In this document: in pieces, positions 8,345-39,111 of the stretch
How the letters are laid out: each line of letters begins with the position of its first letter
Position numbering within the stretch: the first letter of the stretch is position 1
Source of the DNA: a virus
Length of the DNA: 50,042 nt
Direction: 5' to 3' (one strand)
IMG/VR virus record: IMGVR_UViG_3300032087_003940
Coordinates: 1 to 50,042 of that record
The notes under the pieces: generated by a model
What the model saw: only the letters and a program-made list of their open reading frames with translations
The model's database searches: none
What the model was told of the DNA's origin: nothing
Translations under genes and position numbers: made by a program

Positions 8345-9274
8345 ATGAATATTCTTGGAGTAAATATCTCTCATGATCCTGCTATTTGTTTTTATAAAAA
8401 TGGAAGAGTGTATGAATTTTACAATGAAGACCGTTTTATAAACGTAAAAAATGATGAGTTTCATGCTGATCTACAAATAATGCAATCAATACAACAAAAG
8501 GTAAAATCAAAACCAGATTTTGTTTGCTATGCTTCATATGGAAGAAACCAAGCTTATACTAGAATTAATGATTATCAAATTATAAATAAGATTCAACATC
8601 AGTTAGGCCATCCCAAATATTATTTTACTGAAAGAGAACATCATCTTTATCACGCTTGTTCAGCATTTTATTTTTCAGGTTTCGACGAAGCAGCAGCTAT
8701 TGTTGTTGATGGTGGAGGAGCTGCATGTCATGAAGTAAGTTATTCTGAAATGGAATCAATTTATTTTATGAATAAAAAAACAGTATATCCAATTTATAAA
8801 CATTCAAGCAATAGAAGAATCGATATGATTATGAATAGGGAAAATCAGTTAACTGAACTTTTTAAATACCAGGGAGGGTATTTAAATTATTTTTCAAATC
8901 GTGCTATTGGTGGACATACCTTTTCTATGGCAGCACAAAAGATTGGTTATAAATCTGGACATGACTCAGGTAAAGTTATGGGTCTTTCGTCTTATGCTTA
9001 TGCTAAAGAAAGATATGAAAATTTAAATTATGACAAAGTAAAAATAGCTCAAGAGGCACAAGAAGTTACATTCAAAGAAACATGTGAATTGATTGATAAT
9101 GCAAAAAATTTAAGCCGTAATATTGTATTATCAGGTGGTTACTTTTTAAATTGTTCTAATAATTTCAAATACGTAAAAAAGTACCCTGAAGTAAATTTTT
9201 TTGTTGACCCGATTCCTCATGATGCTGGGACTGCTGTAGGAGTAGCTGTTTATTATGATAACTATAAAAACTAA
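8345..9274 (+). CDS. Carbamoyltransferase, N-terminal (NodU/CmcH/TobZ-like) domain
   Basis: The protein has 309 residues. It opens with MNILGVNISHDPAICF, typical of this family, followed by the metal-site His cluster EHHLYHACSAFYFS near 99-112 and the nucleotide-site motif VVDGGG near 121-126, and ends at DPIPHDAGTAVGVAVYY. This is the Kae1-like half, which transfers a carbamoyl group to a sugar or base hydroxyl. It ends in TAA at 9272-9274, 20 bases into the next frame, which encodes the missing C-terminal half. The family is normally one protein of about 500-580 residues. Confidence 0.85.
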   Translation: MNILGVNISHDPAICFYKNGRVYEFYNEDRFINVKNDEFHADLQIMQSIQQKVKSKPDFVCYASYGRNQAYTRINDYQIINKIQHQLGHPKYYFTEREHHLYHACSAFYFSGFDEAAAIVVDGGGAACHEVSYSEMESIYFMNKKTVYPIYKHSSNRRIDMIMNRENQLTELFKYQGGYLNYFSNRAIGGHTFSMAAQKIGYKSGHDSGKVMGLSSYAYAKERYENLNYDKVKIAQEAQEVTFKETCELIDNAKNLSRNIVLSGGYFLNCSNNFKYVKKYPEVNFFVDPIPHDAGTAVGVAVYYDNYKN

Positions 9275-9785
9275 AGAAGAAGCTGTAGAGGTTTTACTAA
9301 AACAAATTCCATTAGTCATTTTTAATGGACCTAGTGAATGGGGGCCTAGAGCTTTAGGTAATAGATCAATACTTTTTGATGCTAGAAACAAAGATGCAAA
9401 AAATATTGTTAATAAATTTAAAAAGAGAGAATGGTGGAGACCTTTAGCTGGCACTATACTATTAGAACATGCTCATGAATATTTTGATTTAGGCACTTTA
9501 GAAGAAAGTCCATTTATGAGTTTTGCTGTTGATGCAAAAGAAAAAGCGTTAGAAAATGTTCCTTCTATTGTTCATGTTGATGGTACTTGTAGAATACAAA
9601 CACTCAAGAGAACTCAAAATATTCCTTATTATGACTTAATAAATCATTTTTACAAAAAAACAGGTGTGCCTATGGTGCTTAACACTTCTTTCAATTTAGC
9701 AGGTTTACCAATTGTTGAAGATTATAGATTTCTTTTAAACACTGTAAATAATTCTGAATTTAAACATGTTTACATTCCTTATTAA
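9255..9785 (+). CDS. Carbamoyltransferase, C-terminal (YrdC-like) domain
   Basis: The protein has 176 residues with the family motif SEWGPRALGNRSIL near 28-41 and the later block GVPMVLNTSFNLAG near 140-153. In family members this YrdC-like half makes carbamoyl-adenylate for the Kae1-like half. It starts at ATG 9255 in the +1 frame relative to its partner, with a possible ribosome site TAGGAG 12 bases upstream. The split could be natural, or a one-base frameshift in a single gene. Both halves keep their conserved motifs, so neither looks decayed. Confidence 0.8.
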   Translation: MITIKTKEEAVEVLLKQIPLVIFNGPSEWGPRALGNRSILFDARNKDAKNIVNKFKKREWWRPLAGTILLEHAHEYFDLGTLEESPFMSFAVDAKEKALENVPSIVHVDGTCRIQTLKRTQNIPYYDLINHFYKKTGVPMVLNTSFNLAGLPIVEDYRFLLNTVNNSEFKHVYIPY

Positions 9786-13129: not shown

Positions 13130-13565
13130 AAAACAAGTTTCGGTTCTTGCAATAGAACCAAAAGAGATTGAGAAATATTGGAACCTTGTTGAGTTTTTTA
13201 TTAGACAAGGGATCAAGTATGAAGACAACTGGATATCAGTGCCTCTTTTTAAAAAGTATTTAAAAGAGAATTCGTATCAGTTATTTATTATGTTTGGATC
13301 TGATGATGGAGAAAAGCATAAAGTGTTTGGTACTTTTGTAACAAGGATTACAGCTTTACCAAACTTTAAACAAGTAGAAGTTGTTTTGCTTGCAGGAGAA
13401 AAAAGGGAACTGTGGCAAGACGAAGTTTCTGAGATGCTTGAACATATTGCTGTTCAATACAATTGTAAAAGAATAGCAGTATTTGCAAGAAAAGGTTGGG
13501 AAAGATTTCTTAACTCAATCGGCTGGGAAACTAAAAGGTATTTATTTACGAAGGAGATAAAATGA
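13104..13565 (+). CDS. T7 gp13-like internal virion protein, GNAT-like fold
   Basis: The protein has 153 residues. SYQLFIMFGSDDGEKHKVFG near 56-75, the WQDEVSEMLEH helix and IAVFARKGWERFLNSIGW near 130-147 match the T7 gp13/DUF2833 pattern, a GNAT-shaped protein needed for virion assembly in T7. It overlaps the previous gene by 26 bases and the next by an ATGA junction, and lies among ejection-type proteins, as gp13 does in T7-like phages. Acetyltransferase activity is not implied. Confidence 0.7.
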   Translation: MQKEKEQIKKQVSVLAIEPKEIEKYWNLVEFFIRQGIKYEDNWISVPLFKKYLKENSYQLFIMFGSDDGEKHKVFGTFVTRITALPNFKQVEVVLLAGEKRELWQDEVSEMLEHIAVQYNCKRIAVFARKGWERFLNSIGWETKRYLFTKEIK

Positions 13566-14407
13566 GTTTTATATTTGGAGGAGGCGGATCAGCACCAGCA
13601 CCAACACAAAGTGGGTCATCTGTCGTAACTCAAAGAGAAGCACCAGAAGTAGAAGCACGAAAACTCGCGCTTTATGATGAAGCTGCTAGATTAGCTGCTC
13701 AACCTGTTTCTCTTCCTGGTATACAAGCTGCACCGGCAACGGCTGCAGAACAAGCTGCGTTTCAAACAGCAGGCCAAACAGGAACGGGTCAAGCTGCTTT
13801 AACATCAGGTATTGCTGCAATTCAAGGTGCACAAGCAGGTCCACAGATATCTCAATTTTTTAATCCGTATCAACAATATGTTACTCAAGAAATAAACAGA
13901 CAAGCTGCACAAGGCCAACAAAGACTTGCTGCACAAGCAATTGGCGCAGGAGCATTTGGTGGTGGAAGAGAAGGTGTTGCTCAAGCAGAATTAGAAAGAG
14001 CAAGATTAAGCCAAGTAGGTTTAGCTCAACAAGCAGGATTTCAACAAGCTTTAGGTGCTGCACAAAGAGAGCAACAATTAGGATTACAAGCTGGTCAATT
14101 ATTAGGAGCACTTGGTGGCCAACAACAAGCTTTAAGATTACAAGACATACAGGCTGGTTTAACAGCTGGTGGAGCACAAAGAGGAATAGCTCAAGCTGGT
14201 TTAGAAGCTGCAAGACAAACTCAATTACAACAATCTTATGAGCCTTTCCAAAGAATAGAATTCTTAAAAGGTATCTTAACTAATTTACCAACAACACAAA
14301 GTAGTATTACAGCAACCACGGCTCCCGGATCTAATCCACTTGCTCAAGCTTTGGGAACTGGTTTAGGTGCATACTCAGCTTACCAGTTTACTAGACCAGG
14401 AGGATAA
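13562..14407 (+). CDS. Ala/Gln-rich internal virion protein
   Basis: The protein has 281 residues. The N-terminal SFIFGGGGSAPAP is followed by a long Ala/Gln/Gly region of coiled-coil character, with repeats such as LQAGQLLGALGGQQQALRL near 174-192. A hydrophobic Gly-rich end (ALGTGLGAYSAYQF) closes it. This composition is typical of proteins ejected with DNA through short tails. It is followed directly, without a gap, by the next gene. No enzyme motif is visible. Confidence 0.65.
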   Translation: MSFIFGGGGSAPAPTQSGSSVVTQREAPEVEARKLALYDEAARLAAQPVSLPGIQAAPATAAEQAAFQTAGQTGTGQAALTSGIAAIQGAQAGPQISQFFNPYQQYVTQEINRQAAQGQQRLAAQAIGAGAFGGGREGVAQAELERARLSQVGLAQQAGFQQALGAAQREQQLGLQAGQLLGALGGQQQALRLQDIQAGLTAGGAQRGIAQAGLEAARQTQLQQSYEPFQRIEFLKGILTNLPTTQSSITATTAPGSNPLAQALGTGLGAYSAYQFTRPGG

Positions 14408-15325
14408 ATGGACAAAGTTTTAACTAGAAAACTTTTTAGAAAAAAATACTTTGAAAAACATCAGCCAAAAACTTTAAATAAAGGAGGTTTAGCTGGTATA
14501 CAAAAATTTCAAAAAGGTGGTCTTACTTCTACTGAAAAAGGAGTTTATGCAGCAGCATTAGCTGGTCCTCTTTTAGCTGCAACACAAAGACCTGGAGAAT
14601 CACAATTTTCATCATTAGCTAGAGCATTTGGCGCCGGTGTATCAACAATACCTGAATTAGCTATAAAGTTTTCTGAAGCAAAAAAGAAAGCTGCACCTAC
14701 AACAATTAGACAAGCAACAGACGCAGAGAAAAGAATGTTAGGTAGAAACCCAGGTGATAGATTAGTTGTAAAAGTAAAGAATGGGGTAATCGATAGTATA
14801 GTGGATAAACCCACAGCTTCTGAAATTGAAAAAAGAGGAAAACGTGAAGCAGCAGGAGAATCAGCAGCAAGAATATTTTCACAACTAGGTCCTGATCCTA
14901 GTACATATCCTACGGGTCCATTAGAGGGACGAATAGGAAGAATGACTGCGTTTCTAGGTTTAAATCCAAGAGTTGCAAGATTAGATGCTGAGTTAGAAAG
15001 TTTTAGAAAAGATGCTATTCAAGCCATGAGGGGTGCACAAGTAGGTCCAGCTGAGGAGGCAAGCTTTAATAAAATTCTTCCATCAATTACAGATAGTCCA
15101 ACAGTATTGAAAGCAAAAATGGAAACAGCTATCGCTAAATTAAAAGCATTAGAAAATAGAATTTCTGCTGACGGTGTCGTTGGAAAAAAATACACAGCTG
15201 AAGATATAGTAAGAGAGTATGGTCAAGACTTGAGTAAATTTGGTGTAGATGTAGATGAGATTGTTTATGATGAATCTTTAAGAACATTTGAAATTAAAGA
15301 TGGTATTGCAGTTGAGGTTAAATAA
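14408..15325 (+). CDS. Virion-associated protein with KGG motifs
   Basis: The protein has 305 residues with a very basic N-terminus, then NKGGLAGIQKFQKGGLTS near 25-42, a hydrophobic segment (AAALAGPLLAA) and a Lys/Glu-rich C-terminal two thirds of helical character. The KGGL-type motif recurs in other structural proteins here. The stop overlaps the next start (TAATG). A structural or ejection-associated role is inferred from its place. Confidence 0.6.
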   Translation: MDKVLTRKLFRKKYFEKHQPKTLNKGGLAGIQKFQKGGLTSTEKGVYAAALAGPLLAATQRPGESQFSSLARAFGAGVSTIPELAIKFSEAKKKAAPTTIRQATDAEKRMLGRNPGDRLVVKVKNGVIDSIVDKPTASEIEKRGKREAAGESAARIFSQLGPDPSTYPTGPLEGRIGRMTAFLGLNPRVARLDAELESFRKDAIQAMRGAQVGPAEEASFNKILPSITDSPTVLKAKMETAIAKLKALENRISADGVVGKKYTAEDIVREYGQDLSKFGVDVDEIVYDESLRTFEIKDGIAVEVK

Positions 15326-17592
15326 TGGGACAAATTAATGTAAAAGGTTTAGGCATTGTTAATATTGCGGGTGATGAACCTACACCAAACGAAATAGAGG
15401 CAATTCAAGATAAGTTAAAAGAAATACAATTAAATAGTATTGTTGATAAACCGGCTGAAGAAGCTACTGATGGATTTTTAAATGATTTTAGTTGGGGGAG
15501 ATTAGTTGCTGAAGCAGGTTTAGCAGTAGCCGGTTCAGTTGCTACAGGTGGTCTAGCATTACCTGGTATAGCTGCAAGAGCAGGTTTTTTAGCAAAACCT
15601 TTTTTAAAACAATTAGCAAAAGCATCAGCTGGATCAGGTATTGGTGCTGGTACTGGAGCTGCAGTTGCTCAAACATTTGATCCTAGGGATGATGTTGTTC
15701 AAGAAATAACGAGAGCTGCAACGGAAGGTGCTTTAGCTGAAGCTGTAGGTGCTCCTTTATTTATTAAAGGTAGCCAAGTAATGAGTAAGTTTTTGTCTAA
15801 AAATCCACAAACATTTAAAGCTTATTTAGATGGAGCAAAAGAAGCAGAAGATTCATTAAAGTTAACAGCTGATAAAATTTTAGCTGATCCAAAAGGTTTT
15901 TCAAAACAGCTTGGAATACCAGAGGAAAAACTAGAGGATTTGGTTCAGTCCGCTAAAATTTTTAAAGAAAAAGGATTAACACCAGGAGTTAAAACTACAA
16001 ATAGAACTGTAGAGATACTACAAAATATTGGAGAAAAATCTTTAGTAGGAGGTGGGGAGTTAACTCGAATTACGCAAGCAGGAAAAAATATAGGAGAAAT
16101 AGCTGCTAAAGATTTATTAGCAGAATTTAGAAAAGTTGCAGACAAAGAAGAATTAGGTTTATTATTTTTAGACTCTATAAGAAAAGGTGGTCAAGCTTTT
16201 AGAACAGAGGGAGATAGATTATATGGATTAGTAGATGAAACTTTAGGTGCTAGAAAATTTGATAGAATTATACCTGTAAAAACATTAGATGATAAGTTAA
16301 AACAAATTATTGATAATGTAGAGCTTAAAGCAGATAGTCCAGTTATAGGCACTTTCTCTAACATTAGAAAACAAATTACCGATAGAGAAGGGCTTTACTC
16401 ATTTAAACAATTGAATAATTTAAGAGGTGAACTTTCTGAAAGATTAAGAGGTTTAGGATATGGGGCAGGCAAATCGCAAAGCCAATTAGCACAAGCAATG
16501 GATGAAATAGATAATATTTTGAAACCTGAGTTTCTTACAAAGAATGTGCCAAACTTTCCAACGGAGGCTCTAACTAATTTAAGAGCTGCAAATAAATTTT
16601 ATTTTGACGGAGCAGAACTTTTTCAAAGAGGTATCTTACAAGGTATTCTAAAAAATGCTGAAACAAACCCAGCAGTTATCGATAACGTTTTTTCTAAAAT
16701 CGTAAGAACTGGAGATAAATCTGCTACTGTAGGAAAAATATTAGACGAAATAGATGCCATGGCAAAACTTCCAGTTGGTAAAGAAACAGCCATTACAGCT
16801 GCACAAGCAGCTACGTTAAAGGGTAGTTTGAAAGGACAATTTTTAAGTGACATAATTGATAAAGCTACAAAAGGCACAGAGCAGTTTGGATCATTTGTAG
16901 ACGCTAAACTTTTTGATGATGCTTTAAGAAAAAGAACTCTTACTTTAAATAAATTATTTACACCACAAGAAGTTAAACAAATAAGACAATTGGAAAGTAA
17001 TTTAGCTTTTGCACAAGGTCAATTGACAAGATCACCAGGTTTACCAGGTGGTGTATTTATTCAACTTAAACAAGCTGGTGCTGCTGGTAAAATTATAGGG
17101 GTTGGTCAGACATTAGCCATTGGTGGTGCCGGTGCTATTGGAGGATTATTACCTGCAGTTGGAATTTTAGCAGCTCCGGTAGCTTTTAACAAAATGCTTT
17201 TAAGTAAATGGTTTCAAAATAAATTATTTAGTGAACCGGCAAAACTTGCAGCTGAAGGTAAGTTAACTCCATCTAGAGCTGCAGTGTTATATAGACAAAT
17301 TGTTGGAAGAATGTTTACTGAGGGTTATATACCTGAAGGAGAAAGAGACAGACAGTTTAGTGAGATAGATGCTTATGAAAGAGGTATAAGAGAAGGAGAA
17401 AGCCAAACTCTACCTCAAAGATCATCACTAAATTTACCAGAAATAACTCCATCACCTATTGGCTCAGCGCCATTAAATCCTAGAACTAGAGCAGCACTTG
17501 CAGGTAACGATCCTATATTACAAGGTATAGCAGCTCAACAACCTACTCAGTTAAATAGAGGAGGAATTGTAAGTGCCAAGAAAAACAACTAA
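15325..17592 (+). CDS. Large internal virion/DNA-ejection candidate
   Basis: The protein has 755 residues, the largest of this block. Gly/Ala hydrophobic stretches occur near 65-115 and 590-625, the second long enough to act as a membrane-penetrating segment (GAGAIGGLLPAVGILAAPVAF). Long helical, charged regions lie between. It ends in QLNRGGIVSAKKNN, another RGGI motif. Size, composition and position after the gp13-like gene resemble the large ejection proteins of podoviruses. No transglycosylase motif could be found by eye. Confidence 0.6.
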   Translation: MGQINVKGLGIVNIAGDEPTPNEIEAIQDKLKEIQLNSIVDKPAEEATDGFLNDFSWGRLVAEAGLAVAGSVATGGLALPGIAARAGFLAKPFLKQLAKASAGSGIGAGTGAAVAQTFDPRDDVVQEITRAATEGALAEAVGAPLFIKGSQVMSKFLSKNPQTFKAYLDGAKEAEDSLKLTADKILADPKGFSKQLGIPEEKLEDLVQSAKIFKEKGLTPGVKTTNRTVEILQNIGEKSLVGGGELTRITQAGKNIGEIAAKDLLAEFRKVADKEELGLLFLDSIRKGGQAFRTEGDRLYGLVDETLGARKFDRIIPVKTLDDKLKQIIDNVELKADSPVIGTFSNIRKQITDREGLYSFKQLNNLRGELSERLRGLGYGAGKSQSQLAQAMDEIDNILKPEFLTKNVPNFPTEALTNLRAANKFYFDGAELFQRGILQGILKNAETNPAVIDNVFSKIVRTGDKSATVGKILDEIDAMAKLPVGKETAITAAQAATLKGSLKGQFLSDIIDKATKGTEQFGSFVDAKLFDDALRKRTLTLNKLFTPQEVKQIRQLESNLAFAQGQLTRSPGLPGGVFIQLKQAGAAGKIIGVGQTLAIGGAGAIGGLLPAVGILAAPVAFNKMLLSKWFQNKLFSEPAKLAAEGKLTPSRAAVLYRQIVGRMFTEGYIPEGERDRQFSEIDAYERGIREGESQTLPQRSSLNLPEITPSPIGSAPLNPRTRAALAGNDPILQGIAAQQPTQLNRGGIVSAKKNN

Positions 17593-24911: not shown

Positions 24912-26751
24912 AAAACATATTTGGTCATGTCCGTCTGAATACAAAGATTTAAGTGGTGCAAAAGAAATAGCTATCGACTTAGAAACAAAAGACGATGGCA
25001 TATCAAGTAGATTAGGTGCAGGTTGGGCATTAGGTAAAGGTAATATTATTGGTTTTGCTGTAGCTGTAGAAGGATGGCAAGGTTATTTTCCCTTTGGTCA
25101 TTTCGGTGGTGGTAACATGATACCTGAGCAAGTAAAAAATTATATGAAGCAAGTGTGTGCTTTACCATGTAGAAAAATTTTTCATAACGCACAATATGAT
25201 GTGGGTTGGTTAGAAGCAGAAGGAATAAAAGTAAATGGTGAAATAGTTGATACCATGGTTGCTGCAGCCATTATAGATGAGAATAGATTTTCTTATTCAT
25301 TGAATGCATTATCTGTAGACTATCTTGGTGAGATTAAAGCAGAGACTGATTTAAAAGAAGCTGCTGCTGCCCATGGTGTAGATCCTAAAGCAGAAATGTG
25401 GAAGTTACCAGCAGAGCATGTAGGGTTCTACGCTGAACAAGATGCACGCCTCACGCTCCTATTATGGCAGAGATTTAAACAAGAGATTGCTCAACAAAGT
25501 TTAACAACAGTTTGGGAACTTGAATCAAAACTATTACCTATACTAATTAAAATGCGTCAACGAGGAGTACGAGTAGAGGTAGAACGTGCTGAATCATTAA
25601 GAAAAGAAATGCTATCCCAAGAAAAGAAAGTATTGCAAGAAATAAAAAAAGTTTCAGGACAAGAGGTCGATATTTGGAATGCCAGAAAAATAGGATCAGC
25701 CTTTGACAAATTGAAAATAGATTATCCAAGAACTGCAAAAACTGGTGAACCTTCATTTACTCATAATTGGTTAGTTAACTCTAGTCATAAACTAGCTAAG
25801 TTAATTTTACAAGGTAGAGAATTAAATAAATTTCATGGAACTTTTTTAACATCTATTATGAAGTACCAAGTTAAAGGTAGAATACATGGTGAGATCATGC
25901 AACTTAAATCTGAACATGGTGGTACAGTGTCCGGTAGATTAAGTATGTCGAATCCTAATTTACAACAGGTGCCTGCTAGAAATAAAGATTTTGGTCCAAA
26001 GATTAGATCTCTATTTTTACCGGAGGAAGATCATCAGTGGGGTAGTTTTGATTACTCGCAACAAGAACCACGAATGACGGTTCATTATGCTGCATCAATC
26101 GGTGAGGGTTATGAAGGCTCACAAGAATTAATTGAATCATATAAAAATGCTCAAGCAGATTTCCACCAAACAGTTGCAGATCTTGTAGGTATAGAAAGAA
26201 CACAAGCTAAAACAATTGGATTAGGTTTAATGTATGGTATGGGTAAAAATAAATTAGCTGTAAGTTTAGGTGTAACAAAAGAAGAAGCAGATGTATTAAT
26301 TTCAAAATATAATCGTAAGGTTCCGTTCGTAAAACAACTTTCTGATAAGTGTATGTATACAGCACAAGAGAGAGGAGTAATAAGAACAAAGAAAGGAAGA
26401 AAATGTAGATTTGATATGTGGGAAACAAAAGACTTTGGTTTACATGTTGCAGAGAAAGAAGAGAATGCAATTGCTAAATATGGAAAAGAAAATATTAAAA
26501 GAGCTTATACATACAAAGCACTTAATAGATTAATTCAAGGATCTTCAGCAGATCAAACTAAACAAGCGATGTTAGATTGTTATGAAGCAGGTTATTTGCC
26601 TATGTTGCAAATACATGATGAGCTTTGTTTCAATGTTAAAGATGAAAAACAAGCAAAAGAAATAAAAAAAATTATGGAGCAAACGATAGAATTTAAAGTT
26701 CCGTTTATAGTAGATTATGGTTTGGGCAGGTCGTGGGGTCAGGCTAAGTAA
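24883..26751 (+). CDS. polA: Family A DNA polymerase with 3'-5' exonuclease domain
   Basis: The protein has 622 residues, similar to T7-like polymerases. Exonuclease motifs: DLET (Asp32, Glu34), FHNAQYD (Asp106) and YAEQD (Tyr183, Asp187). Polymerase motif A is FDYSQQEPR (Asp390; most relatives have QIELR), motif B RTQAKTIGLGLMYG (Arg439, Lys443, Tyr451) and motif C QIHDE (Asp579, Glu580). The residue matching E. coli Phe762 is Leu447. No N-terminal 5' nuclease domain is present. AUG is preceded by GGAG. It is the core replicase of the phage. Confidence 0.9.
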   Translation: MSLQLTMNFKKHIWSCPSEYKDLSGAKEIAIDLETKDDGISSRLGAGWALGKGNIIGFAVAVEGWQGYFPFGHFGGGNMIPEQVKNYMKQVCALPCRKIFHNAQYDVGWLEAEGIKVNGEIVDTMVAAAIIDENRFSYSLNALSVDYLGEIKAETDLKEAAAAHGVDPKAEMWKLPAEHVGFYAEQDARLTLLLWQRFKQEIAQQSLTTVWELESKLLPILIKMRQRGVRVEVERAESLRKEMLSQEKKVLQEIKKVSGQEVDIWNARKIGSAFDKLKIDYPRTAKTGEPSFTHNWLVNSSHKLAKLILQGRELNKFHGTFLTSIMKYQVKGRIHGEIMQLKSEHGGTVSGRLSMSNPNLQQVPARNKDFGPKIRSLFLPEEDHQWGSFDYSQQEPRMTVHYAASIGEGYEGSQELIESYKNAQADFHQTVADLVGIERTQAKTIGLGLMYGMGKNKLAVSLGVTKEEADVLISKYNRKVPFVKQLSDKCMYTAQERGVIRTKKGRKCRFDMWETKDFGLHVAEKEENAIAKYGKENIKRAYTYKALNRLIQGSSADQTKQAMLDCYEAGYLPMLQIHDELCFNVKDEKQAKEIKKIMEQTIEFKVPFIVDYGLGRSWGQAK

Positions 26752-27136
26752 AGAAGACATAGCATATTGTGCTGGTCTTTTTGATGGTGAAGGATGTGTT
26801 CAATATAAACAATATCCTAGATCAAGAAACGAAGGCAAGACTTCTCATTTAGTTTGGAAAATTACATTAGAAATTAATATGATTGAGATTGATCCTCTTC
26901 ATTACTTTTATAATGTATTTAAAGTTGGGACAATTACTCATAAAGCAAACTTAGGATTTAGTAGGAAAGATCAATGGCGTTGGAGATGTTCTAACAGACA
27001 AGCATTTGATGTAGCTAAAAAAATTTATCCATTTAGTATTGTAAAGAGACCTAAGCTATTAATGGTGATAAATCATTATGAGTTTAAAAAGCCGATAGGT
27101 GTCCTGCAAAAAAAGTATGATTTTTCTAAATTTTAA
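26717..27136 (+). CDS. LAGLIDADG homing endonuclease, single motif
   Basis: The protein has 139 residues with one motif, AGLFDGEGCV near 19-28 (acid Glu25), the size of a homodimeric LAGLIDADG enzyme. The middle holds basic and aromatic strands (KDQWRWRCSNRQAF). It starts 35 bases inside the 3' end of polA in another frame, and no ribosome site is visible, so its translation may depend on polA. Homing enzymes often lie beside conserved replication genes that they target. It could also be a WYL-free intron-type enzyme without an intron here. Confidence 0.75.
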   Translation: MVWAGRGVRLSKEDIAYCAGLFDGEGCVQYKQYPRSRNEGKTSHLVWKITLEINMIEIDPLHYFYNVFKVGTITHKANLGFSRKDQWRWRCSNRQAFDVAKKIYPFSIVKRPKLLMVINHYEFKKPIGVLQKKYDFSKF

Positions 27137-27842: not shown

Positions 27843-28109
27843 ATGACGAAAATGACTGAAGAAGAATTTGCTGATTGGATAGCGCAGAAACAAGACTCAG
27901 GCGATTATTCAAGAGATCCATATAAAAAAAATTCATGGCAAGATAAAAGAATAGCTGCAATGAACAGAGCTTCAAAGCGTATAGGTTATTCTTTTAACGA
28001 AATGAATCCTTGGTTCGATCAGTGGTTAGCAATTTTGGAATCGAAAGCGAAAACATTAGAAGAGTTTAAACAGGAGGAATGGTATGTTCGATCAAGAAAA
28101 CAATCTTAG
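27843..28109 (+). CDS. Hypothetical protein, first of the early-type block
   Basis: The protein has 88 residues, acidic at the N-terminus, with a Trp-rich C-terminal half (MNPWFDQWLAILESKAK) and helical throughout. There is no ribosome site before the ATG, which may be almost leaderless relative to the promoter. It overlaps the HTH gene by 26 bases. No family is recognised. Confidence 0.55.
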   Translation: MTKMTEEEFADWIAQKQDSGDYSRDPYKKNSWQDKRIAAMNRASKRIGYSFNEMNPWFDQWLAILESKAKTLEEFKQEEWYVRSRKQS

Positions 28110-28320
28110 TTTTACAATAGGAAGTTGGTTAAGACATCATAGAAAATCAAATGGTCTTTTACAATCTGATATTGCTAAAATTTTAAATGTGTCACATCAA
28201 AGCGTTAATAAATATGAACACAGTATTTGTAGAATGTCAGGTGATTCATTATTAAAATTAACCAATCATTATGGTTGGAGTTTGAAAGGTTTAGTAAAAA
28301 AAGAAAATGCAAATACCTAG
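28084..28320 (+). CDS. XRE/Cro-like helix-turn-helix regulator
   Basis: The protein has 78 residues. The HTH_XRE region spans about 12-65: IGSWLRHHRKSNGLLQSDIA, then the recognition helix VSHQSVNKYEHS and the closing LLKLTNHYGW. CAGGAGG lies 6 bases before the ATG. It directly precedes another HTH gene with a 14-base overlap. Cro-like size suggests it controls the divergent promoter region just upstream. Confidence 0.8.
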   Translation: MFDQENNLSFTIGSWLRHHRKSNGLLQSDIAKILNVSHQSVNKYEHSICRMSGDSLLKLTNHYGWSLKGLVKKENANT

Positions 28321-28594
28321 TCGTATCATAGCACAAAAAAATTTAATTAAACTAAAAGAAGCTTACGGTTTAAGCTATACAACTATTTCAAAACAATCTG
28401 GTATGGACTTAGGTTACATACAAAGATTGTTTAGTGGTAACAGATCTTTAGGTTTTAAAAATTTAGATAGATTTGCTAGATTTTTTTCTATTGCAAGCCA
28501 CGAGTTATTAAACCCTAACTTTAATGTGATTTGTAATAAACAAATTTACATAAATGGAAAAGATAAAACAGTTCATAGATTAACAAAGGAGTAA
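28307..28594 (+). CDS. Second helix-turn-helix regulator
   Basis: The protein has 95 residues. The HTH core is LKEAYGLSYTTISKQSGMDL near 17-36 followed by GYIQRLFSGNRSLGF, an XRE-type fold with a longer C-terminal tail. It overlaps the Cro-like gene by 14 bases, so both regulators are made together. The tandem arrangement is reminiscent of paired phage switch proteins, but no integrase is present here. Targets are unknown. Confidence 0.7.
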   Translation: MQIPSRIIAQKNLIKLKEAYGLSYTTISKQSGMDLGYIQRLFSGNRSLGFKNLDRFARFFSIASHELLNPNFNVICNKQIYINGKDKTVHRLTKE

Positions 28595-28595
28595 A

Positions 28596-28790
28596 ATGTC
28601 TATAGGAGCAAAAATAAAAACTGTATTAGCAATAGCTTTTATTGCTTCAGTTCTTACAGCATGTTCAACAAAATATACTGTTAAGTTTGGAAAGAAATGT
28701 ACACCTGATCATAAAGAGTGGTCATATGTATGGTTTGTAGAAAAAGAAGGTAACAATGTTGCAAAGGCAAATTGTAAGAAAGGAAAGTAA
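28596..28790 (+). CDS. Small lipoprotein
   Basis: The protein has 64 residues. A signal peptide with a hydrophobic core ends in the lipobox LTAC (Cys23), leaving a basic 42-residue mature part with Cys35 and Cys60. AAAGGAG precedes the ATG. Small phage lipoproteins often block superinfection or lie in the outer membrane; which applies here cannot be seen. Confidence 0.75.
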   Translation: MSIGAKIKTVLAIAFIASVLTACSTKYTVKFGKKCTPDHKEWSYVWFVEKEGNNVAKANCKKGK

Positions 28791-28993
28791 TGGACATAAC
28801 TAAATGGAAAAGTATGGCGATCAGAAAAGATGACCACACTTTATTGAAAGGTCTTTGTGCAGATAAGTACAGAGCACCAGCTGCAATGTTTCAAAAGATA
28901 TTGCATGACTACATTGGATTCCAAGCAAAGAAAAAAGGAGTTGATGTAGATAAATATAAAACTCAGCTAAGTAAGAAAGGTAATGGCAAATGA
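28790..28993 (+). CDS. Small RHH-like DNA-binding candidate
   Basis: The protein has 67 residues. The N-terminal part KWKSMAIRKDDHTLLKGLC is of the type beta strand then helix, and a second helix (AAMFQKILHDYIGF) follows, resembling a ribbon-helix-helix fold. The TAATG overlap couples it to the lipoprotein gene. The fold assignment is tentative. Confidence 0.45.
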   Translation: MDITKWKSMAIRKDDHTLLKGLCADKYRAPAAMFQKILHDYIGFQAKKKGVDVDKYKTQLSKKGNGK

Positions 28994-31129: not shown

Positions 31130-31477
31130 TTAGTCTATATCTTGTTTGATACAAGTAACGCTGTATGAATATAAACCCTCATTTTTAGCTAGATAACCTA
31201 ATCTAACTAATTCGTTCATGTTCTTTTTAACGGAAGGGAATTTATCTTTTAACCCTTTGTTACGCATCGTTCTATAGATCCTTGACGCGCTAAACTCTGA
31301 AACTAAGTGTTGTCCATTTTCAAAGCTTTCCGGTATCGCTAGTATTACAGCCATATGTCCTGCTGTAAGATGGTGAGTTCTGTTACCATCGATTTTAGCT
31401 CTATATGAGAATAGCAAGAAGAAATTAAGTATTTCGTTTGCTGTTTCTATAGTTGTTGATTTTTGATTTAAGTACAT
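31130..31477 (-). CDS. Leftward winged-helix-like regulator
   Basis: The protein has 115 residues. The region SASRIYRTMRNKGLKDKFPSVKKNMNELVRLGYL followed by a short beta wing (YSYSV) resembles a winged-helix DNA-binding domain. It reads leftward with AAAGGA before the ATG, out of the non-coding region at 31478-31913, and stops near the bidirectional terminator. A regulator acting on the upstream repeats is possible. The name is from fold resemblance only. Confidence 0.55.
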   Translation of the reverse strand: MYLNQKSTTIETANEILNFFLLFSYRAKIDGNRTHHLTAGHMAVILAIPESFENGQHLVSEFSASRIYRTMRNKGLKDKFPSVKKNMNELVRLGYLAKNEGLYSYSVTCIKQDID

Positions 31478-31913
31478 TGTTTTTCCTTTGTTATAGTTAA
31501 TATACCACCTACGATTGTAAGTGAGGCTTTATCTAGCCATAGGTGGCACTTAATTGATGAGCTAGAATTCATCTATAGTGTCCTTTTAAAAAGGCCCGAG
31601 AACCGAGGTCAGGCAGTAGGTATTTTAGGACCACGGGTCACGGTTCTGCCACAATTCAGCGTTTCCTATATACCCACTCTATAGAAAAAAAATTTTAAAA
31701 AAAAATCTCTATAGGGCCAAAAAACTAGGAAACTAGGAAAAACTCAATAAAATCAACACTTCTAGGTCAAAAACAACTAGGAAAAAACTAGGAAAATTCC
31801 CAGAAAACTAGGAAAAATCTTGATCCTCACACTAAATTTTTTATTTTTTGAAATTTTTTTCCTACTTTTGGGGTATATAGGGAAATGGAATTCTGTGTTA
31901 TAAATAGGTCAAG
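31478..31913. promoter_or_regulatory. 436-base non-coding control region, origin candidate
   Basis: No gene is seen. The region holds CCACCTA/TAGGTGG arms (31503-31509, 31540-31546), CTCTATAG twice exactly 30 bases apart (31677-31684 and 31707-31714), five ACTAGGAAA boxes (31724-31815), and long AT-rich runs (31685-31706 and 31830-31860). The array is enclosed by near-perfect inverted arms TTTCCTATATACCC (31662-31675) and GGGTATATAGGGAAA (31871-31885). It lies between a leftward regulator gene and the small terminase gene. Such a set resembles a replication origin or a complex regulatory region. Confidence 0.55.
31724..31815 (+). repeat. Iteron-like ACTAGGAAA cluster
   Basis: Exact copies of ACTAGGAAA begin at 31724, 31732, 31776, 31787 and 31807, and a variant TCTAGGTCA at 31761. 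The first two overlap by one base; other intervals are 11, 20 and 44 bases. All lie in one orientation. Confidence 0.75.
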
Positions 31914-32426
31914 ATGCCTAAAAAGAGAAATGAATTAAAATCCTGGACTGAATTAACTAAAAAGCAAAAAGCTTTTGTAGATATACTGGTAGAGAATTGG
32001 GGCCAGATATCTAAGGTTGAAGCTGCTAAACAAGCTGGTTATGAATCTAAAAAGGAATATGGTCCAATGGAGATTGCCTCCAGATTAACAAATCCTGATT
32101 TGAATCCTCATGTATGTAGATACCTGGAAAGAAGGCTGCAAAAAGAATTACAGATTTACGAAAAAGATAAATTAAGGAAATACAAAAGATTTGATGACTT
32201 ATCTAAAAAAGCAGAAAACAAAGGACAGCTTGGTGTTGCTGTAAATGCTGAATTTAGATCTGGTCAAATGGCAGAAATGTTTGTAAATAAATCAGAAGTA
32301 AAACATGTAGGATTGGAGGGTATGTCTCGTGAACAGCTTGAGAAACGTTTATCCGAGCTCGAACAGAAAATTGGTGAAGCGAAAAATATCGTTGACGTTA
32401 CGCCAGAAAAAACTGCTTCGGACTAA
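31914..32426 (+). CDS. terS: Terminase small subunit candidate
   Basis: The protein has 170 residues. The N-terminus has ELTKKQKAFVDILVENWG followed by AAKQAGYESK, the helix-turn-helix arrangement of small terminase subunits, which bind the packaging site on DNA. The rest is helical and charged with a coiled-coil end (MSREQLEKRLSELEQKIGEAK). It is placed 5.2 kb before the large subunit, further than usual. No ribosome site is clear before the ATG. Confidence 0.65.
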   Translation: MPKKRNELKSWTELTKKQKAFVDILVENWGQISKVEAAKQAGYESKKEYGPMEIASRLTNPDLNPHVCRYLERRLQKELQIYEKDKLRKYKRFDDLSKKAENKGQLGVAVNAEFRSGQMAEMFVNKSEVKHVGLEGMSREQLEKRLSELEQKIGEAKNIVDVTPEKTASD

Positions 32427-32510
32427 GTCTTGGTCTAACTTTATGACAGTATTTCATGAAGTGCACAACCCAGGAATAAATACAAGTGTCGGATTTGTAA
32501 AAGTAAAAGT

Positions 32511-32650
32511 AGATTTGTAAAACTTTACTATGAAAAAATGAAATCAAATGACTAAACGATTATTATGTAAATATGAAATCAGATTTGTAAAACTTTACTA
32601 TGTAAATATGAAATCAGATTTGTAAAACTTTACTATGTAAATATGAAACG
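32511..32650 (+). repeat. Four 35-bp tandem repeats with start-stop micro-ORFs
   Basis: Units lie at 32511, 32546, 32581 and 32616, each 35 bases. Units 3 and 4 are nearly identical, unit 1 differs at a few sites and unit 2 only in its first half. The core is TAAAACTTTACTATG. Units carry ATG TAA and ATG AAA TCA GAT TTG TAA frames; the last unit supplies the ATG of the next gene at 32643. Confidence 0.85.
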
Positions 32651-32939
32651 AAAGATAAAAATAAATAAGAAGAAAAAAATAGATATTGAAAAATATCCAA
32701 TGGTGGAGTGTCGTTGGAATGATATTGTAAGCGACCCAAGTTGGATTAGTTTAGATGATCTAAAAAATGCAAAGTTAGCTGTCTGTATTACTAAGGGACA
32801 TTTATTATCTCAAAGTGGTGGAATAACAAGAATATTTGGTGATTATGCTATTAATGAAAAAGACCCTAAAAAAATTGATGAAGTTGGAAACTCAACAATA
32901 ATTCCTAACTCTAATATAATTAAAATAAAAAAAATCTAG
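32643..32939 (+). CDS. Hypothetical protein starting inside the tandem repeat
   Basis: The protein has 98 residues with a Lys/Ile-rich N-terminus (KRKIKINKKKKIDIEKY), then a mixed domain around VECRWNDIVSDPSWISL near 21-37. The start codon lies in the last 35-bp repeat unit, without a ribosome site. A truncated or duplicated 5' end may have produced the repeats. No family is recognised. Confidence 0.55.
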   Translation: MKRKIKINKKKKIDIEKYPMVECRWNDIVSDPSWISLDDLKNAKLAVCITKGHLLSQSGGITRIFGDYAINEKDPKKIDEVGNSTIIPNSNIIKIKKI

Positions 32940-35277: not shown

Positions 35278-35661
35278 ATGAAAAAACGTGAAAGTTTATT
35301 GTGGCAACGTATAAAAAAATTAAAGTTAAAAGGTCAAATTTTTCGCATAGAAAGTAATACTATCAACGGAATTCCTGACGTTTATTGGTTGTTAAATGGT
35401 CAATCAATTTGGATTGAATTAAAATCTAATAATATCAAGAATTGTGGTCTTTCTAAGTTCCAAATCAACTGGCATAACAATCATTATAAAAATGGTGGGC
35501 GTTCTTTTATCTTGCAAAGAGACGTCTCTTTGCGACGTCTCAAACTATTCGAGTTACGTGGGTCGAGGGTCGTGAAAATTTTAGCTGAGGGCATTGACGA
35601 CAACGGCACGCTGGACTTGCACTTTGATTGTATGCGTTACCACGTTGAAAAAATAAAATAA
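35278..35661 (+). CDS. VRR-NUC-like PD-(D/E)XK nuclease
   Basis: The protein has 127 residues. The core FRIESNTINGIPDVYWL (Glu25, Asp34) and IWIELKS (Glu47, Lys49), plus a later Gln, fit a PD-(D/E)XK nuclease of VRR-NUC or resolvase type, used for junction or flap cleavage during replication and packaging. It stands alone with its own palindrome-bearing upstream region. A hairpin and a very strong terminator follow. Confidence 0.7.
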   Translation: MKKRESLLWQRIKKLKLKGQIFRIESNTINGIPDVYWLLNGQSIWIELKSNNIKNCGLSKFQINWHNNHYKNGGRSFILQRDVSLRRLKLFELRGSRVVKILAEGIDDNGTLDLHFDCMRYHVEKIK

Positions 35662-35710: not shown

Positions 35711-35743
35711 AAACCCCCCGACGCCTTCGGCGTCGGGGGGTTT
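35711..35743 (+). terminator. GC-rich rho-independent terminator
   Basis: An 11-bp perfect GC-rich stem (35714-35724 with 35730-35740), extended by three A-T pairs, closes a CTTCG loop, followed by TTTT. The GC content is unlike the surrounding AT-rich DNA. It ends the nuclease transcript. Confidence 0.9.
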
Positions 35744-35930
35744 TGTGTTTCTAAAAAGTTGCTATGCAACTTTGAAACTGAACCTCTATAACTAAAACTT
35801 TGCTATGCGATTTTGGGTGCATGTGTCTATAACTAAAACTTTGCTATGTCCATATGAGCGCGCAGGTCTATAACTAAAACTTTGCCATGAACTTTTGAAA
35901 CGAAACTTCTATAACTTTTTTATAAAAAAT
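35744..35930 (+). repeat. Regularly spaced array: 23-bp repeats with 18-bp variable segments
   Basis: The exact period is 41 bases: repeats begin at 35744 (degenerate), 35785, 35826, 35867 and 35908 (degenerate end). The three central copies are identical over 23 bases except one base in the third, with core CTAAAACTTTGCTATG. The 18-base segments between them differ; the first and the last resemble each other. No Cas gene is present in the window. Confidence 0.85.
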
Positions 35931-36010: not shown

Positions 36011-36039
36011 TTGACAGTCATTAGCATCTTATGCTAATG
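36011..36039 (+). promoter_or_regulatory. Promoter/operator with 9-bp palindrome
   Basis: Consensus TTGACA at 36011-36016 is followed at once by CATTAGCAT (36019-36027), CTT, and its exact reverse complement ATGCTAATG (36031-36039). The -10 box is weak (around 36034-36040). A regulator on the palindrome would block RNA polymerase. Confidence 0.55.
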
Positions 36040-37632: not shown

Positions 37633-39111
37633 ATGTCTAAGTCTACTGATTTATTATCTACAGATGACCTACGTTTGAGGCTCGAAAGAACCTGGATTCA
37701 ACATATTAAACTATGTCAGGACAATTTCTTATATTTTGTAAAAAATGTATGGCCTGAATTTATTTGTAAAACAGAAAAAAATAAAGATGATTGGGGGCAC
37801 CATCAGATTATTGCAAAAGAGTTTACTGATATAGCAAAAAATAAAAAAGGAAGGCTCATTGTAAATATGCCTCCTAGACATACAAAATCTGAATTTGCTT
37901 CTATTTATTTTCCTGCTTGGATGATTGGTAAATATCCCAAAATGAAATTAATGCAAGTGTCACACAACGCAGAACTATCAGCTAGGTTTGGTGCTAAGGT
38001 AAGAAATTTAATTGATAGTAAGGAGTATAAAGAAATCTTTGGAGATGTTAAACTACGAGAAGATTCAAAAGCAAAAGGACGTTGGGAGACTAATCACGGG
38101 GGAGAATATTATGCAGCGGGGGTCGGCGGTTCTATAACAGGACGAGGGGCGGATCTTTTGATTATTGATGATCCACACACTGAACAAGATTCATTATCTG
38201 ATTCAGCAATGGAAAGAACTTTCGATTGGTATTTATCAGGACCTAGACAACGTTTACAACCAGGTGGATCTATTGTTTTAGTTATGACCCGTTGGGCCGA
38301 GGACGATTTGACGGGAAGGCTTATTAAATCACAAACAGAACCTAAAGCTGATAAATGGAAACAAATTTCTTTTCCTGCAATCTTACCAAGTGGTAATCCA
38401 GTATGGCCTGAGTATTGGAACCTAGACGAATTGGAAAAGGTTAAAGCTTCGTTGTCCGTGAGAAATTGGTCGGCACAATACATGCAAGAACCAACTTCAG
38501 AAGAAGGAGCCATCTTGAAGCGTGACTGGTGGATCCCGTATCACGGACCTATGCCTCATCTACAACATGTTATTCAATCTTACGATACAGCATTCTCAGC
38601 AAAACAAACTGCCGACTATTCAGCAATTACAACTTGGGGCATCTTTCAAAGAAACGAAACCGGCGAAAATGCAATCATGCTTATCGATGCTGTAAGAGGT
38701 AAATTAGAATTTCCAGAATTAAAAGCTCTAGCATTAGAACAATATAAATATTGGGAACCGGAGACCGTGGTTATAGAAGCAAAGGCCTCGGGCCAGCCAC
38801 TTATTTATGAGCTTAGAAGAATGGGTATACCGGTTGTCGATTTCGTTCCATCAAAAGGCAAGGATAAACATACACGGGTCAACGCTTGTGCTCCTATATT
38901 TGAGAGCGGACAAGTTTATTATCCTCATGGCGAAAAATTTGCTGAAGAAGTCATTGAGGAATGTGCTGCGTTTCCGCATGGTGAAAACGACGATTATGTG
39001 GACAGTACAACTCAGGCTATGTTAAGATACCGTCAAGGTTACTTTGTTTCAACTTATTCTGACGAGGATGAGAAATCATTGTACAAAGATCGTAAATACG
39101 TATATTACTAA
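37633..39111 (+). CDS. terL: Terminase large subunit
   Basis: The protein has 492 residues. The packaging ATPase has a Walker A-like MPPRHTKS near 79-86, Walker B LLIIDD near 175-180 and a coupling motif MTRW near 218-221. The nuclease half has Asp318 in SYDTAFS, Glu382 in VIEAKASG and Asp454/Asp457 in DDYVDSTTQAM, the RNase H-like acidic set that cuts concatemeric DNA. The length is normal. The partner small subunit lies at 31914, with many accessory genes between. Confidence 0.9.
   Translation: MSKSTDLLSTDDLRLRLERTWIQHIKLCQDNFLYFVKNVWPEFICKTEKNKDDWGHHQIIAKEFTDIAKNKKGRLIVNMPPRHTKSEFASIYFPAWMIGKYPKMKLMQVSHNAELSARFGAKVRNLIDSKEYKEIFGDVKLREDSKAKGRWETNHGGEYYAAGVGGSITGRGADLLIIDDPHTEQDSLSDSAMERTFDWYLSGPRQRLQPGGSIVLVMTRWAEDDLTGRLIKSQTEPKADKWKQISFPAILPSGNPVWPEYWNLDELEKVKASLSVRNWSAQYMQEPTSEEGAILKRDWWIPYHGPMPHLQHVIQSYDTAFSAKQTADYSAITTWGIFQRNETGENAIMLIDAVRGKLEFPELKALALEQYKYWEPETVVIEAKASGQPLIYELRRMGIPVVDFVPSKGKDKHTRVNACAPIFESGQVYYPHGEKFAEEVIEECAAFPHGENDDYVDSTTQAMLRYRQGYFVSTYSDEDEKSLYKDRKYVYY

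Follow-up and report, generated by a model that had tools for sequence, protein, structure and literature searches.

Two direct-repeat arrays in HTVC023P-type pelagiphages match each other in type and co-vary with a distant gene pair

What does a short repeat, recurring at fixed steps between two phage genes, do for the phage, and which protein might read it? We address this question for an intergenic array in the window (i.e. the whole stretch of 50,042 nucleotides analysed here), an IMG/VR virus record of an HTVC023P-type pelagiphage with a terminase large subunit (TerL) 81% identical to that of HTVC023P. Phages of this type are a very common marine group. As a separate observation on the same record, one carbamoyltransferase is spread over two overlapping ORFs (8345–9274 and 9255–9785) as its N- and C-terminal halves, possibly reflecting a frameshifted gene. 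The array, hereafter A2, lies among the following features:

35278–35661, + strand: nuclease-like gene (phrog_2165/93), the anchor for A2 in relatives
35711–35743, + strand: perfect, terminator-like hairpin with a 15-bp GC-rich stem, immediately 5' of A2
35744–35930, + strand: array A2, with good copies at 35785–35807, 35826–35848 and 35867–35889 and a 41-bp period
37633–39111, + strand: TerL

The 23-base repeats at 41-base steps given in the preliminary description are real: TCTATAACTAAAACTTTGCTATG is found exactly at 35785 and 35826 and with one mismatch at 35867, and 0.00 matches at ≤3 mismatches are expected in shuffled sequence. Tandem Repeats Finder reports 35751–35916 with a period of 41 and a score of 121. 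Both ends are degenerate, as had been claimed; the left-end copy (35744–35766, CTAAAAAGTTGCTATG) has diverged and the right-end copy (35908–35930) is truncated to its first half. The proposed setting between a strong terminator and a new promoter stands on the terminator side, where the hairpin is perfect, whereas the promoter is a TTGACA-type site seen by eye near 36012, 3' of A2, which a consensus promoter scan left unscored while finding nothing convincing across the A2 region. A promoter-like TTGACA ... ATGGGATA also recurs, by eye, ahead of several genes in the window and in HTVC023P. Rfam and tRNA scans gave no matches.

A2 is half of a larger two-array system, whose other member, A1, was absent from the preliminary description and directly follows the terminase small subunit (TerS):

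31914–32426, + strand: TerS, considered below as array reader and rejected
32511–32648, + strand: array A1, directly after TerS, with a 35-bp period
32643–32939, + strand: small conserved gene directly 3' of A1 (phrog_25889, function unknown), which does not track array type

The A1 core, TAAAACTTTACTATG, ends at 32532, 32602 and 32637, with one degenerate copy in between, and the final copy reaches the start of the next gene. The core TAAAACTTTRCTATG is common to both arrays of the window; A1 and A2 have this motif in common, but neither linker nor period. The window (WIN) and six near-complete or long relatives (W01, G002, G004, G005, G006 and G012) have exactly six motif sites each, half of them in A1 and half in A2, and none of these genomes carries the motif on the opposite strand (expected count 0.0). 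Two genomes with weak motifs (G003 and G007) show scattered low-scoring matches. On inspection the motifs look bipartite, e.g. CTTTGAAG-N3-ATGTGGG in class d. A small ORF (32329–32520) that stops at A1 overlaps the last part of TerS in a different frame; its product (..FHEVHNPGINTSVG..) is conserved in relatives.

We then compared the two places among relatives. HTVC023P has arrays at both (following TerS and the nuclease gene, respectively), with a different motif (CTTGAGAATA...CCGAAA / CTTGAGAATAACAACGAAA). Two scans of viral contigs yielded 54 distinct genomes containing both places, and in each of them a joint motif search proposed three candidate sites per array. Because joint motif finding always yields sites, the match between A1 and A2 was put to a separate test, in which a motif trained on A1 only was scored on A2. 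It reached on average 37.5 bits on the A2 of its own genome and 18.3 bits on those of other genomes (permutation statistic 18.8, null sd 1.42). Against shuffled A2, the match exceeds z>4 in 40 of the 54 genomes and is weak in the other 14. The motif differs radically among phages yet matches across both arrays of one genome, which is statistically strong in 40 of 54.

A type switch separates the window from contig L019: the two are ~90% identical over 31.7–38.1 kb, but both A1 and A2 are unalignable. The near-complete genome G001 has the same array type as L019. HTVC027P and 023Pt_psg01 were left out of the comparison because their TerS is inverted and their repeats are of other kinds, i.e. 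GCTTG-type short repeats after a nuclease-like gene in place of the arrays (L163 7921–8057 and 8811–8868; L164 9291–9385). In the open-licence literature, represented mostly by titles and abstracts, we found no earlier description of these arrays.

Which gene could supply the specificity? TerS of the window differs from that of L019 by one residue, and this difference accompanies unrelated arrays at both sites. Since TerS is near-constant while the arrays switch, the specificity factor must be encoded elsewhere. DNA binding by the SF6 TerS domain is not sequence-specific, so TerS is an unlikely driver of type switching. The gene after A1 (32643–32939) and the nuclease gene before A2 were also rejected as readers, both being near-identical across array types. 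The same holds for a LAGLIDADG-type protein (26717–27136), which hardly differs between L058 (class b) and L065 (class d). This protein is encoded directly after PolA and is present in every group genome checked, so that it has probably been domesticated instead of acting as a homing parasite. A ribbon-helix-helix-like protein (28790–28993) does not track the motif, and two HTH_3 proteins (28084–28320 and 28307–28594) are not common to the group. A further rejected candidate is a divergent winged-helix-like gene (31130–31477, − strand) upstream of TerS; it is replaced or missing in close relatives, an alternative 132-aa gene occupying its slot in classes a, b and e.

A gene pair some 15 kb from the arrays behaves differently. 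It was first spotted in a gene table of the window and its long relatives, and tested afterwards. The pair and its upstream neighbour are:

13562–14407, + strand: gene upstream of P305, weakly matching phrog_4287 ('DNA ejection protein') and not tracking array type
14408–15325, + strand: P305 (305 aa), member of the HTVC023P gp82 family and first of the two co-varying genes
15325–17592, + strand: P755 (755 aa), second gene of the pair, adjacent to the first, HTVC023P gp83 family

The association test covered 28 genomes and ~35 gene families (in which the families of the 755-aa and 305-aa proteins are called P850 and P285, respectively), took motif similarity from hand-read A1 consensus sequences, and handled genome kinship by partial rank correlation, controlling for the rest of the genome, and by permutation. 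The partial rank correlation with motif similarity is 0.47 for the 755-aa family and 0.42 for the 305-aa family, followed by 0.18 for the next family. Motif similarity between nearest neighbours is 0.66 and 0.61, respectively, against a null of 0.20–0.21 ± 0.05, of which the highest of 5000 permutations reached 0.43; controls gave 0.18–0.40 (TerS, PolA, exonuclease and the upstream ejection-like gene 0.31–0.35). Only these two of the ~35 families, adjacent to each other, track the motif.

Individual comparisons show the same pattern from both directions. Genomes with near-identical backgrounds and unrelated motifs have P755-family identities of 22–37% (e.g. G023/G015, background 85% and P850 36%; G033/G008, background 82% and P850 23%), whereas most values lie at 38–79% where the motif is the same but the backgrounds are distant (e.g. 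G008/G034, background 63% and P850 70%). In all seven genomes fetched after the idea had formed, the best P755-family match falls in the genome's own motif class. A scan gene by gene, with seeds drawn from seven genomes, ranked the pair highest among the well-sampled genes; some genes represented in only 7–10 genomes had scores just as high, and the association was weak for several of the pair's own seeds. Class e (G003) has 78–84% of P850 in common with class d. The tracking block begins inside P305 and ends ahead of the last ~55 residues of P755, and the first ~43 residues of P305 follow lineage, being near-identical between the window and G001 while the remainder is not. This looks like cassette exchange within conserved ends. 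G027 (L230 796–6170) is discordant: its A1 is class-a-like, but its ejection slot encodes an unrelated pair of 767 and 1023 aa; the contigs that encode relatives of the 1023-aa protein seem to break off before reaching the arrays. With this exception, site sequence co-varies with P305/P755 as would be expected for a cognate protein paired with a repeated site. The expectation in the preliminary description of a DNA-acting, iteron-like element is supported: the repeats are asymmetric and direct, lie nearly always at two intergenic loci and co-vary with distant protein genes.

Both HTVC023P gp82 and gp83 are annotated as hypothetical, and the pair has no clear PHROG or PDB family match. It lies in the structural module beside ejection-type genes: besides the weak phrog_4287 neighbour, the phage DSL-LC04, which has a related TerL, has its 'DNA transfer protein' gene at the equivalent position, next to the PD-(D/E)XK nuclease. 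The structure models are weak (pLDDT 53 for P755 and 67 for P305), and that of P755 is predicted to be mostly helical. A Foldseek search with this low-confidence P755 model gave viral matches (E ~1e-5, TM ~0.3) that include an 'Injection protein' and LT_GEWL-domain proteins and should be read with caution; a structure search of the PDB with P755 returned nothing. No DNA-binding fold was identified in these models of P305 and P755. By position, synteny and weak fold matches, P305 and P755 are probably ejection (internal virion) proteins, an assignment that the ejection neighbour, the DSL-LC04 slot and the viral fold matches make well motivated.

Several other explanations for the arrays have to be weighed. 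The suggestion of a miniature CRISPR, i.e. a set of acquired 18-bp segments, drew on a regular repeat with variable 18-mers. However, the spacers are inherited: they are unchanged in L018 (99.9% identical to the window), persist with point substitutions in L004, and a whole A2 unit has been lost in L026. Spacing among relatives is mostly 41–66 bp in A2 and 30–35 bp in A1, and the repeat, not the spacer, is the part that varies between genomes, switches type and is under type-specific selection. No Cas family occurs among the ten neighbouring genes (Pfam/PHROGs), in agreement with the original view of an array without Cas genes; an exonuclease with a secondary 'CRISPR/Cas system associated' match is encoded 18 kb away. 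Because spacing drifts and spacers change by point mutation, the array is not CRISPR-like; as far as genome comparison allows, we regard this reading as refuted, with a negligible residual probability. The alternative of a diverged tandem repeat, also raised at the outset, agrees with the drifting spacing and with variable segments common to relatives: the array is of tandem type, though with a conserved partner array and a conserved role. Neutral tandem repeats homogenised through A1–A2 gene conversion would account for unit loss or gain (L026) and drifting periods; yet both loci are retained in the relatives examined, only the motif and neither linker nor period is common to A1 and A2, and a correlation with genes ~15 kb away would be unexpected. 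The A1-to-A2 match and the nearest-neighbour association already disfavour such neutrality, which we consider highly improbable.

Functional alternatives differ mainly in the protein that they invoke. Arrays between TerS and TerL, one of them directly after TerS, could form a pac or cos site at which TerS binds both to start packaging, as proposed for the pac of SPP1, which also contains sets of direct repeats (PMC4737164). This is quite unlikely given that a TerS with a single changed residue accompanies wholly different arrays, that its partial correlation with the motif is 0.18, and that separate conserved CTAGGAAAA repeats lie upstream of TerS:

31722–31815, + strand: CTAGGAAAA repeats, arranged alike in several array types

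Their density there is 3.8 copies per 400 bp against 0.16 genome-wide, and they are also found at L001 4255–4275. Constancy across array types is the pattern expected for a site with a conserved reader, and the CTAGGAAAA repeats are a better candidate terminase site than A1/A2. A pile-up of contig ends was discarded as packaging evidence because it is confounded by assembly. Early transcription, with the injected pair or a partner binding the arrays as first-wave operators or promoters, has a precedent in the ejected virion protein of N4, an RNA polymerase that reads specific early promoters (PMC12633501), and would suit the placement of A2, with a terminator before it and a promoter-like site after it, and of A1 against the next gene. 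It is nevertheless unlikely, as neither family nor fold searches matched the pair to an RNA polymerase and the promoter scan of the A2 region was unconvincing. Direct repeats could also be iterons for a phage initiator, with A2 adjoining an AT-rich unwinding region, and the 25–50 bp after A2 indeed average 83% AT (~67% genome-wide). But this stretch is short, A1 has only a general AT rise, and neither the primase, helicases and PolA nor the small DNA-binding genes follow the motif; GC skew is uninformative because it climbs steadily around the genome. An origin is thus very unlikely. Finally, arrays and ejection proteins might each adapt to the host lineage without interacting, host-specific types being plausible for proteins that meet the host envelope. 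The tail-fibre-region family (647–1537), however, does not track the motif, and a host factor with 20-bp DNA specificity this variable is implausible, which makes such a common cause a slender prospect.

The reading that we prefer is that P305/P755 is the cognate partner of the arrays and acts on genome handling. We give it a probability of about 0.6, which covers partnership and genome handling jointly; any single step is less probable. A1 and A2 would form a two-site recognition element, usually with three good copies each on one strand, whose long asymmetric motif is read by the protein pair (P305 and P755; gp82 and gp83 in HTVC023P). Occupying the DNA transfer/ejection slot, the pair would probably sit inside the virion and enter the cell with the DNA. 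We infer direct binding from co-variation, and likewise the virion location and the step served: by binding A1/A2 the pair may engage its own genome with the ejection or entry complex, possibly anchoring or ratcheting DNA at delivery, or loading or positioning it at assembly. Cassette and arrays would then be interchangeable types that must match, and a lineage gaining another cassette type would see both arrays switch to the matching motif.

These patterns suggest that ejection proteins may recognise their own genome through a matching DNA tag. That they act only, or better, on DNA with matching arrays is a tentative idea, possible but doubtful. If it were true, injected or assembled machinery would favour its own genome in mixed infections, and rare-type selection would maintain the diversity of the many array and cassette types. 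A sequence-typed tag paired with an ejection cassette would represent a novel form of genome recognition, and type swapping would offer a natural experiment in protein–DNA co-evolution.

Among known systems, CRISPR arrays have similarly regular repeats and variable segments, but here the spacers are inherited, Cas genes are absent nearby and the period varies. Iteron origins, lambda cosB and SPP1 pac likewise consist of short directly repeated sites that are bound by proteins and lie close to terminase or replication functions; here, by contrast, TerS and the tested replication proteins do not track the motif. Mycobacteriophage stoperators, too, are repeated asymmetric sites recognised by a phage protein. 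As described in PMC9283540 and PMC6550527, they are scattered genome-wide and serve lysogenic immunity, in contrast to two tight arrays with a virion-type pair; in most near-complete genomes scanned, the six array sites are the only ones. A lytic lifestyle is described for HTVC027P, a member of this group (PMC12753301). The pair resembles T7 gp14/gp15/gp16 in genomic slot, in having a large helical protein and in its glycine-rich hydrophobic stretches. According to PMC8954989, T7 gp15 (747 aa) and gp16-C bind DNA; gp16-C, the T7 ejection domain whose DNA binding is best described there, has no sequence preference and is thought to ratchet DNA in. By analogy, this sequence-independent binding counts against a sequence-specific ejection pair, and the passages of that review considered here describe no matching genomic array. 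Also comparable is the N4 virion RNA polymerase, a protein ejected with the genome that recognises specific sites on that same genome (PMC12633501); N4 uses hairpin promoters and a 3,500-residue RNA polymerase, whereas the pelagiphages have direct-repeat arrays and a pair that is not a recognisable polymerase.
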